A stretch of DNA of 33,514 bases. Origin: Planctomycetota bacterium. GTDB taxonomy: Bacteria > Planctomycetota > JAJSAM01 > JAJVHW01. The translations under genes were made by a program, and so were the position numbers. Where the stretch lies: the NCBI GenBank assembly GCA_024277065.1, contig JAJRVY010000032.1, forward strand, positions 1-33,514. The letters run 5' to 3'. This document shows positions 5,639-26,237 of this stretch, one piece after another; position 1 is the stretch's first letter, and the number at the start of each line of letters is the position of its first letter. Under the pieces are notes generated by a model. The model was given only the letters and a program-made list of their open reading frames with translations. It searched no databases and was not told the DNA's origin.

Positions 5639-6925
5639 ATGTCGCCGGGTTATCGCGCCATCGCCGGGCTCGGGCTCGCGCTCGCTGGACTCGTGCTCAT
5701 CGCACTGGGTGGCTTCGGCGTGCCCCGTGCGGCGGCAGCCGATGACGAGGGTGCGGCGGCAGCCGATGACGACGTTGCGCTGTCTGACGGCGCCGGTGAT
5801 GCTGTCGCCGGTGATGCCGCTGCCGGTGACGCTGCCGACGGGGTGGTGCGGGTGCTCGAGTTGACGGGCGACGACGTCTACCTGCGCTCGGGGCCGTCCA
5901 TCGACCACCACGACGTGGGGCGGCTGTCGCGCGGCGACCTCGTGCTGGAAGAGGCGCGCGACGGGGACTTCGTGCGCGTGCGCGTGCCCGGCGGCGTCGC
6001 GCTGTACGTGTTCGCGGCGCTCCTCGACTGGGATGGGGGGGCCCTGCGTTGCAAGGTGGCGGCCGACGACGTGCTCATGCGGGCGACGCCGACCACGGGG
6101 CACTACCCGCTCTACGACCAGAAGTTGCAGCGGGGCACGGAACTGGTCGTGATCGGCACGGAGGACACGTCCAGGGGCCGCTGGCTGCGCGTCGTCTCGC
6201 CGCCCGACGTGCATGTCTGGATCCATGCGCGTTACGTGCGCGTCGCCGACCCGCCGCCCGCGCCCGGCGTGCTCGCCGCGCGGGCACGCGCACGACTCGA
6301 TGTCCTCTCGGGTGGCCGGACGCGCGAGGAGCGCGAGCGGCTCGCCGCGGCGCGTCGCGCGGCGCTGGGCGAACGTCTCCGTGAGTTGACGGAGAAGGTC
6401 GATGGCGGCGCGGCGGACACTGGAACTCTCTCTGGGACACTCGCCGCCGCGCGGCGGCTGGCGCTGGACGCCGGCGACGCCGCCGAGCCCGCCCTGCGTG
6501 CCCGTGCCCTCGCGCTCGTCGAACGCATCACCGGGCTTCTCGAGGAGGCGCAGAAGGCCGCAGCGACGCGCGCTGCGGAGGCTGCAGCGAACACTGGGGC
6601 GCAGGCCGAGCGCGAGCGCGCAGCGGCGCAGCGCAGGCAGCAGGAACTCGAGGAACTGCGTCGCCACCGCGAGGCGCAGGCCGAGGCGGAGCGGCGACGG
6701 CGGGCCGCGTCCCGCGGCGCCCCGGCCGCCGCCGGCATCGTGCGTGTGCGCGCCGGGAAGGCGGTGCTGGAGAAGGACGGGGCCGTCGTCCTGGAACTGC
6801 GCTCGCGCAAGTTCCGGCTCGCCGACTACGTCGGGAAGCGCGTGCGCCTCTGGGGGCACAGGCAGGAGCGCGAGGACGCCCGCGACCGCCTCGAGGTCAC
6901 GTCGCTCGAGGTCCTCTCGAGGTAG
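5639..6925 (+). CDS. Secreted/membrane protein with two bacterial SH3-like repeats and coiled-coil region
   Basis: N-terminal hydrophobic segment 'MSPGYRAIAGLGLALAGLVLIALGGFG', then 'DDVYLRSGPSIDHHDVGRLSRGDLV' and 'DDVLMRATPTTGHYPLYDQKLQRGTELVVIG...WIHARYVRV'; Glu/Arg/Ala-rich coiled coil follows. Confidence 0.78.
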   Translation: MSPGYRAIAGLGLALAGLVLIALGGFGVPRAAAADDEGAAAADDDVALSDGAGDAVAGDAAAGDAADGVVRVLELTGDDVYLRSGPSIDHHDVGRLSRGDLVLEEARDGDFVRVRVPGGVALYVFAALLDWDGGALRCKVAADDVLMRATPTTGHYPLYDQKLQRGTELVVIGTEDTSRGRWLRVVSPPDVHVWIHARYVRVADPPPAPGVLAARARARLDVLSGGRTREERERLAAARRAALGERLRELTEKVDGGAADTGTLSGTLAAARRLALDAGDAAEPALRARALALVERITGLLEEAQKAAATRAAEAAANTGAQAERERAAAQRRQQELEELRRHREAQAEAERRRRAASRGAPAAAGIVRVRAGKAVLEKDGAVVLELRSRKFRLADYVGKRVRLWGHRQEREDARDRLEVTSLEVLSR

Positions 6926-6935
6926 CGCACCTGAG

Positions 6936-7171
6936 ACGGTGTTGACAAGAGGAACGCGGCGCCGGTCACGCGACTTGCGCGGATCTGAGCCTGGGATCGT
7001 CGCAGCGTCCAGCGGCGCAAGTAGCGCGCCGCAGTTCCGCTCGTCCGTGGAGCCCGCCGGACGGCGTTGCGCTCACTCGATGACTCGGACAGGGGAGTCA
7101 CGTTCACGACCGCGCCTTGCAGGCAGGCTCCACGAACAAGCCGACGCTCCCTTTCCTTTTGTCAACACCTT
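6936..7171. mobile_element. MITE-like 236-bp non-coding element with terminal inverted repeats, flanked by 5-bp direct repeats CTGAG
   Basis: Left end ACGGTGTTGACAAGAGGAACG (6936-6956) versus reverse complement of right end AAGGTGTTGACAAAAGGAAAG (7171-7151): 18/21 identical. CTGAG at 6931-6935 and 7172-7176. No convincing ORF inside; flanking genes converge on it. Confidence 0.55.
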
Positions 7172-7211
7172 CTGAGTGACGCTCGCGCGGCGACGCCCAT
7201 GAAGCCGTGCT

Positions 7212-8225
7212 CTACTCGCCTGCGACGCTCTCCTTGTTGAGCTGTCCGAGCGCCCGCATGATCTTCTGCAGCCGCCGCTCGACCTCGCGGGCGTCCGGGT
7301 CCATCTCGAGGGCCTCGTTGTAGGTGTCCCGGGCCTGCTTGAGGAGCAGCCGCGCCTCGTGGCGATGGCGGCCGCGCTCCGTGCCGTCCGGGCCCGCGAG
7401 GCGGAAGTGCTCGAGGCCGCTGACCTCGGCCTCCGCGGCGGCGCGCAGCTTCTCGCGCATCTGCGGCGTGAACGCACCGAACGGCACGCGCACCCGGGGC
7501 GCCCTGCCGACGCCGCCGATGCCGCTGGGTTCGTCGTCGGCCGGGGGCTGCCGCAGCGTGCCGTCGCCGAGCGACGTCGGCGTGCTCGGCGCCGGCAGCC
7601 CGGCGCCGAGTCCGCGGGCGATCATCGCCGCCCGCAGGGAGCGCTCCTTCGGGCCCGCGAGGGGGAGCGCAGCGCGCAGTCTCATCTCGACCGGACCGCC
7701 GCCGACGGCGAGGTCGAGCGCCGACGTGACGGCATCGCGCAGGTCGCTCTCGAGTCCCGCAGCGGCGGCGAACAGCGCGACGTCGAGCCACGCGCTCTCG
7801 GTGCCGGCACTCCGCGCGCGGGTCTCGAGCTCGATCAAGCGATCGCGCGCCGTGCGGCCTGCGTGGTCTGCTGCAGGCGGGGCGGTCGTCAGCGCCCAGG
7901 CGAGCACGGCGCGCCGGCCGCCCGACTCCGCGCGCTCGCGCTGCACGTCGGTCTGGGCGGCCACGCCGGCGGTTCCGTAGGCCGTCCACGCCGCGTCGAA
8001 GTCGCCTCGGTCGTAGGACTCGTCGCCGTTGCGGATCTGCTTCTCGGCCGCCGCCGCGCGATCGACGGCGCGTCCGGGACTCGTGGTCGTGGCCGTCTCG
8101 TGGGCCGCGATGCGCTCGAGCCCGAGCATGCGAAGCACGCCGTCGGCGCCGTCCGGGTGGACGTAGACGGCTGCCCCGAGCGCGAGGGCCACGGTGACCA
8201 CGACGAGAAGGCCGGTCTGCTTCAA
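7212..8225 (-). CDS. Hypothetical membrane-anchored protein with TPR-like segments
   Basis: '(L)KQTGLLVVVTVALALGAAVYV' hydrophobic N-terminus; 'NGDESYDRGDFDAAWTAYGTA' and 'ARDTYNEALEMDPDAREVERRLQKI'. TTG start at 8225 preceded by GGAGTGAG. Confidence 0.7.
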   Translation of the reverse strand: MKQTGLLVVVTVALALGAAVYVHPDGADGVLRMLGLERIAAHETATTTSPGRAVDRAAAAEKQIRNGDESYDRGDFDAAWTAYGTAGVAAQTDVQRERAESGGRRAVLAWALTTAPPAADHAGRTARDRLIELETRARSAGTESAWLDVALFAAAAGLESDLRDAVTSALDLAVGGGPVEMRLRAALPLAGPKERSLRAAMIARGLGAGLPAPSTPTSLGDGTLRQPPADDEPSGIGGVGRAPRVRVPFGAFTPQMREKLRAAAEAEVSGLEHFRLAGPDGTERGRHRHEARLLLKQARDTYNEALEMDPDAREVERRLQKIMRALGQLNKESVAGE

Positions 8226-26032: not shown

Positions 26033-26237
26033 GCGGCGCTCATCTCGAGGCTGGAAGGCGGTTGGGGTCCGCGCAGGAATGAGTTCGGGATTCGGTCGGC
26101 TGCCACGACGCGGGGCGGCGTTGCCTCTCCTCCCCGACTCGGCTCCGCAATGAGTCGCGTCGTCGCGGCGCCTTGCCCCGCGCCGCCCTCGCTCGCCCCC
26201 GCTTGGTCAGTTCCGGTGTCGGAAGGCCCGGTGACGA

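Follow-up and report, generated by a model that had tools for sequence, protein, structure and literature searches.

Between two convergent genes of the window, by which we mean the whole 33,514-nucleotide stretch of planctomycete DNA analysed here, lies a short segment with inverted ends. The question is whether this segment is a mobile element, what may have moved it, and what its interior does. The plus-strand gene, ending at 6925, encodes an SH3-domain protein, and the minus-strand gene, ending at 7212, encodes an unnamed protein (B) and is followed by a tRNA-ribosyltransferase gene (tgt); the convergent arrangement reported in the preliminary description is therefore correct. The same description held that the ends match at 18/21 positions, which we reproduced. 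The best inverted 21-mer pair in the 310-nt stretch around the element scores 19, and none of 40 stretches of equal length drawn at random from the window exceeded 16. The segment had also been called non-coding, and it is, but the reported extent (6931-7176, 236 bp) had to be revised: the boundaries of the copies place the body at 6935-7172, which is 238 bp. By repeat search, the inverted arms can be extended to 31 nt at 81% (6924-6954 and 7153-7183).

The left terminal inverted repeat (TIR), GACGGTGTTGACAAGAGGAACG, occupies 6935-6956 on the plus strand and has an IS5-like end, and the right TIR, GAAGGTGTTGACAAAAGGAAAG, occupies 7151-7172 on the minus strand. Wobble asymmetry and folding energies, given below, suggest that the minus strand of the body is the folded, functional one, and read on this strand the element consists in turn of a TIR, the long hairpin P3-P4, the mini-hairpin P2b, hairpin P2, and the second TIR. 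The P3-P4-P2b region (7025-7150, minus strand) scores 111 bits with covariance model R1, while the conserved core hairpin P3-P4 (7050-7130, minus strand) scores 52.6 bits with model R2. Two conserved internal-loop strands, GCAAGGCG at 7113-7120 and CAACGC at 7064-7069, lie on the minus strand of the core. Hairpin P2 (GTCACGCGACTTGCG ... GCGCAAGTAGCGCG on the plus strand) spans 6966-7028, is assigned to the minus strand, and is missing in E-type elements. A second member of the superfamily, a truncated E-type element, is present in the window at 26065-26200; it retains one TIR, GGGTCCGCGCAGGAATGAGTT, at 26065 and has lost the other, and R2 scores 62.8 bits at 26105-26186 on the minus strand.

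A BLAST search with 6924-7183 against the element's own genome, a metagenome-assembled genome (MAG) of 4.4 Mb in 362 contigs, returned about 40 distinct places at 71-100% identity. Many of these copies span the whole element at 84-96%, and others form a group near 71%. A TIR pattern found 46 ends in this genome and a reversed-pattern control found none; several copies lie at the ends of contigs, which is usual for repeats in a short-read assembly. Related copies, in subfamilies with other TIRs, occur in four related genera of the same taxonomic family. The exact TIR had no match outside its own genome in a scan of the GTDB collection, from which that genome itself was possibly left out. With ends defined by nine TIR types (GAAGGTGTTGACAAGAGG, GAGGGTGTTCCCATAAAC, GAGGGTGTCGCGAACTGA, GAGCGTGAGCAGGAATCC, GGCGTCGTCCCGAAACAA, GGGTCCGTCAGGCAACAA, GTGGCCGTCCGGGAATAA, GAGGCTGTGAAGGAACCC, and GGGTTCGCGCAAGAATAA), we assembled 102 elements with both ends. 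Although the TIRs vary among subfamilies, the two ends of one copy match each other. Most elements measure 235-274 bp, and the E-type elements, which lack the P2 arm, 165 bp. Hybrid copies also exist (L030 and L047), the former combining the TIRs of one family with the core of another. Three copies consist of little beyond two TIRs (L047, L048, and L075; 49, 52, and 54 bp) and still have duplications, so that the ends alone suffice for movement. Two further repeats were noted in passing: one of 223-237 bp in G003, with ends GATCATTCACGARGGTTCGCG and CTG/CAG or CCG/CGG flanks (L106:2020, L134:1096, L235:83, and L249:998), and a 257-bp inverted-repeat element in G002 (L085:2675-2937) with ends GGGACGGTCCCCAAAAACTCA.

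The window copy is abutted on both sides by CTGAG, as had been noted, and the nature of these five bases can be judged from the other copies. The three bases adjacent to the ends are identical in 59 of the 102 elements, while an outer C is found in 71/102 and an outer G in 67/102. Where both flanks read TNA (70 copies), the middle bases of the two sides are the same in 56 copies and complementary in 2. Since the outer C and G amount to preferences and the middle base is a direct repeat, CTGAG is neither a 5-bp duplication, as first proposed, nor an extension of the inverted repeat, which had been raised as a caveat. From comparison of the flanks, the duplication is a 3-bp TNA within a C-TNA-G target, so that CTGAG in the window comprises the duplicated TGA (6932-6934 on the left and 7173-7175 on the right) and the target preference around it. 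The duplicates differ between copies (TGA, TCA, TAA, and TTA), and dispersed copies with different flanks were what the suggested BLAST check had looked for.

Relatives also provide junctions without the element. In two of them, G001 and G004, the SH3 gene, B, and tgt follow one another as in the window, and the convergent junction between the SH3 gene and B measures 116 bp without any element in G001 and 178 bp without the window's element in G004. At the junction between B and tgt, an E-type and an A'-type element lie adjacent to each other in G001 only; the window has none there and G004 has a short gap. By these comparisons, the insertions at conserved junctions are lineage-specific. The empty sites are defined at the level of gene junctions; the single, base-exact CTGAG that had been envisaged could not be recovered because of sequence divergence. 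The G004 junction after the SH3 gene (L454) carries a short palindrome of its own, CTAG|CAGGCTGTCGG...CGACAGCCTG|CTAA, whose first flank contains a TAG stop codon; this is possibly an IS1182-like insertion consisting of TIRs only, likewise on a stop codon.

Dispersed copies, duplications, and junctions without the element make the mobility of the element well supported, and the window element is almost certainly a miniature inverted-repeat element (MITE). The other possibility offered at the outset, a decayed IS, was not supported, as the interior is a conserved fold rather than a remnant reading frame and no copy was found to carry its own transposase. The latter observation also agrees with the initial statement that the element holds no transposase and would be non-autonomous. 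Taken as a whole, the data are best explained by a non-autonomous DNA transposon that belongs to a large superfamily for which we found no description, and we place the probability of this reading, together with the mobiliser, the insertion at stop codons, and the selected fold discussed below, at roughly 0.75.

The duplicated TNA has a particular relation to the neighbouring genes. Of 63 flanks whose third-position G+C (coding) signal is strong, 53 have it as the in-frame stop codon of the flanking gene, and in 10 it falls in one of the other two phases. By a crude gene caller, a stop codon was used in 41/67 non-coding insertions, compared with 17% of the TNA sites and 29% of the CTNAG sites that these non-coding flanks offer (binomial p ~1e-15 and ~5e-8, respectively, values that are indicative only because the gene calls are rough). 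The window copy itself lies 6 nt past a stop codon and not on one. This enrichment could stem from selection against gene disruption, from target preference, or from both. Any TNA reads as a stop codon on one of the two strands (TGA/TAA directly, TCA/TTA on the other), and an insertion at a stop codon would thus rebuild the stop; the element could then occupy the 3' end of a gene at no cost to it, which would explain the observed placement. The orientation of the element relative to the gene whose stop codon is occupied is random (18 vs 24), which argues against a strand-specific function in cis in the mRNA. A conserved C-terminus, '...FLRGP', before some insertions proved to be the translated TIR of an E-type element. 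Our literature searches returned no description of MITEs at stop codons or of the hairpin motif.

The transposase that moves the element is likely of the IS5 type. The preliminary description had suggested comparing the ends with those of known IS, and in this comparison a resemblance was seen for subfamily A only: the A-type end (GAAGGTG..ACAAG) agrees at 12/15 positions with the IS5 end in an annotated E. coli copy, but the ends of the other subfamilies differ. The TNA duplication agrees with the 3-4 bp TNA/YTAR duplications of the IS5 family, and it fits the IS1031 group of that family. E. coli IS5, in contrast, has a 4-bp duplication, which reads TTAG in the copy we examined. Also unlike IS5, no IS5-type or other transposase with the element's ends was found in the genomes searched, which are incomplete MAGs, so that this absence is weak evidence. 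The PF01609 matches in the element's own genome comprise only an IS701-like element, which has a TIR of its own, a fragment of the IS1182 family, and a single short piece, and PF13340 gave nothing above cut-off in five genomes. A candidate autonomous element at L234, the only long TIR pair found, was rejected, as it is a C-type copy interrupted by a nested IS256-family element (L234:1220-2871; ORF 1253-2719) whose own TIR, GGGGTACGGTCAAGAG, differs from that of our element and whose duplication is 9 bp, GCGTTGGGC. The IS701-like element at L093 (G000:C57) was likewise set aside as mobiliser because of its own TIR, CCTGGGGTTTCGCCC, and its CTAG flanks; it is complete and adjoins a second DDE transposase ORF. 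As the copies show, an enzyme that recognises ends of about 15-22 bp and duplicates 3 bp (TNA, preferably in C-TNA-G) has inserted the element and its relatives many times, and this enzyme is probably an IS5-type DDE transposase acting in trans.

The interior provides the second part of the answer. Compared with shuffled sequence, the window element has folding z-scores of -5.0 (plus strand) and -6.5 (minus strand), and copies in G004 and G001 reach -9.6 and -10.4. The core is an imperfect hairpin in which the loops GCAAGGCG and CAACGC[A/C]GC are near-invariant and the stems covary freely. In an alignment of the P3-P4-P2b region from eight subfamilies, the blocks GCAAGGCG, ACTC, CAACGC, and GGCGCG are near-invariant and compensatory changes occur at 12 of 21 predicted pairs. 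In a second alignment (A2) of 26 hairpins, double changes occur at 18/21 pairs, 92.8% of the cells are paired (60.2% in shuffles), and 162 cells hold double changes (50 in shuffles), for a score of 0.777 compared with 0.181; 16 of the 26 rows were found with the structure model, which favours pairing, while eight came from DNA similarity or its relatives and two from the loop pattern alone. No Rfam 15 family matches at gathering score. By eye, the GCAAGGCG and CAACGC loops do not provide both the R' and R'' boxes (GTTRRRY/RYYYAAC) of an integron attC site.

The two strands of the hairpin are not equivalent. At fixed 1x1 mismatches, one strand has A.C rather than G.T (127 vs 25), so that the other has G.U/G.T; because the subfamilies are related, the events in such counts are not independent. 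The strand bearing G.U/G.T is the more stable one in nine of nine subfamilies and also in all seven hairpins from elsewhere, found by loop pattern or BLAST, and A2 holds 28 GU and 7 AC on one strand. This wobble asymmetry, together with strand stability, points to the folding of a single strand, which in the window would be the minus strand; RNA and single-stranded DNA (ssDNA) are indistinguishable by this evidence. Recent changes within subfamilies have no wobble bias (41 GT : 44 AC), so that copies drift after insertion whereas the templates that spread are constrained. We consider the core hairpin to be, with good probability, a selected single-strand structure.

The core is not confined to the window's family. 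R1 has matches in 26 of 294 Planctomycetota genomes, and R2 counts in eight genomes are at least 132 (the element's own genome), 29, 46, 44, 77, 81, 150, and 41. The E-values of some distant R1 matches are weak; those inspected have both loops, GCAAGGCG and CAACGC[A/C]GC, in the same or slightly varied form, within elements that have other ends. Carriers of the common loops include elements with TNA flanks and IS5-like ends, elements with CTAG flanks and CAGCCTGT ends similar to those of an IS1182-family element, and others with longer flank repeats. The carrier in G235 reads CTAG|CAGCCTGTTGAAAAAGTC...GACTTTTTCAACAGGCTG|CTAG, and its ends resemble CTAG|CAGCCTGTCGGG, the end of an IS1182-family element in the genome of the window. 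BLAST located the same loops or close variants in long stems on plasmids of the betaproteobacteria Comamonas odontotermitis and Cupriavidus basilensis. The loop pattern applied to viral-library contigs returned 80 loci, most of which are chance matches with an unpaired outer stem, and two of which are real, with the same loops or near variants in long stems. Pattern matches in Pseudomonas (L104) and Rhizobacter (L107), without a fold-back core, look like chance. A plasmid BLAST with a planctomycete hairpin and a phage BLAST with an L443 hairpin gave nothing convincing. G086 (L408, L416, L424, and L431) has at least 150 core hairpins, many near-identical, in elements ending GTACCGC..CCACG, and the longer flank repeat at L416 (CTGAGGC...) suggests a third class of target-site duplication. 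We tentatively propose, at somewhat less than even odds, that the hairpin represents a structured nucleic-acid module, so far unrecognised, which is conserved across phyla and common to otherwise unrelated short transposons (IS5-like, IS1182-like, and others).

Several other explanations of these facts deserve consideration. The hairpin could itself be an independent mobile or recombining module for which the TIR-bearing MITEs are mere carriers, and the occurrence of the same loops under TNA flanks, CTAG flanks, and longer flank repeats would agree with this, as would L030, which joins the TIRs of one family to the core of another. However, we found no boundaries that coincide with the hairpin, whether marked by a duplication or not, descent from a common ancestor with replacement of the TIRs accounts for these observations too, and hybrids can arise by homologous recombination between neighbours; we regard this explanation as rather unlikely. 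It is much less probable still that the element is a host-domesticated structured RNA or a terminator at gene ends whose mobility lies far in the past and no longer matters. A position at gene ends, a strong fold, and covariation would be expected of such an RNA, but insertions at conserved junctions are lineage-specific, orientation to the gene is random, copies drift after insertion without wobble bias, and no T-run terminator signature was seen in the window copy.

Folding of one strand and conserved asymmetric loops would also fit recognition of ssDNA, as in REP/REPIN- or TIRYT-type repeats moved by a RAYT (Y1/HUH) enzyme, where the fold is the recognition structure, and TIR families around RAYT-like genes have been described (PMC3733652). 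Nevertheless, no RAYT match was found in G002 and G003, each with dozens of copies, G000, G001, and G004 have only one or two each, and the inverted repeats around the RAYT genes in those three genomes are unrelated to the element's ends, so that RAYT was rejected as mobiliser. A 3-bp duplication with long TIRs is also not known as a product of Y1 enzymes (IS200/IS605), and the chance that a RAYT moved the element is very small. Smaller again is the chance that the hairpin is functionless, a fold-back by-product of an inverted duplication conserved by descent only. MITEs often are fold-back structures and some distant matches have weak E-values, but the loops stay invariant while both strands of the stem change together, and the same loops recur in hairpins of unrelated contigs that were found by loop pattern or BLAST and not by structure.

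We therefore return to a non-autonomous transposon with a selected interior and compare it with known systems. With the IS5 family and its IS1031 group, and with the Tourist MITEs of the PIF/Harbinger group, it shares a TNA-type duplication of 3 bp, a preference beyond it, and short non-autonomous copies; the eukaryotic PIF/Harbinger relatives duplicate 3 bp (TAA/TTA) with a preference for flanking bases (PMC2836001). For IS5 MITEs, our literature searches found no description of a conserved hairpin interior or of placement at stop codons. Correia/NEMIS, RUP, ERIC, and CIR elements resemble ours in length (100-300 bp), TIRs, duplications, intergenic position, and strong fold, but they have mostly TA-type ends and are A+T-rich, with a two-armed fold in CIR alone (PMC2229807), whereas the interior described here is G+C-rich with a cloverleaf-like fold and invariant loops common to different TIR classes and phyla. 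REP/BIME, REPIN, and TIRYT repeats are also palindromic, present in high copy, and located downstream of genes (PMC3733652); our element is several times longer, has a 3-bp duplication, and occurs in two copy-rich genomes without a RAYT match. Geobacter metallireducens is described as having a 24-member family of predicted short RNAs, intergenic and multicopy, with central palindrome GRCGTAGCGCTGCTACGCC (PMC2700814). Compared by palindrome alone, this family resembles, in its terminal palindrome, P4 of some of our copies (GGCGTAGC..GCTACG in G086), and we treat it as a lead only.

It is possible that the folded strand works as a single-stranded nucleic acid, a step about which we are less certain than about the enzyme. 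If it works as RNA, it may form a structure at the 3' end when the gene end is transcribed, making the insertion tolerable or even beneficial; if it works as ssDNA, it may act during replication or transposition. In either case, the hairpin would be kept by selection on the element and would be exchanged between, or retained through, different types of transposon ends.

Transposons with different ends thus carry one covarying hairpin with invariant loops. If this hairpin has no role as RNA or ssDNA, its covariation needs another explanation; if it does, it would be a functional structure that is widespread yet undescribed, with tens to more than 100 copies per genome. Should the hairpin indeed be a shared module, it could be a cis factor or RNA for persistence at gene ends, or a passenger with its own machinery for recognising single strands. 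For the transposons themselves, a 3-bp duplication that is always a stop codon on one strand would be a built-in way of landing harmlessly at gene ends.
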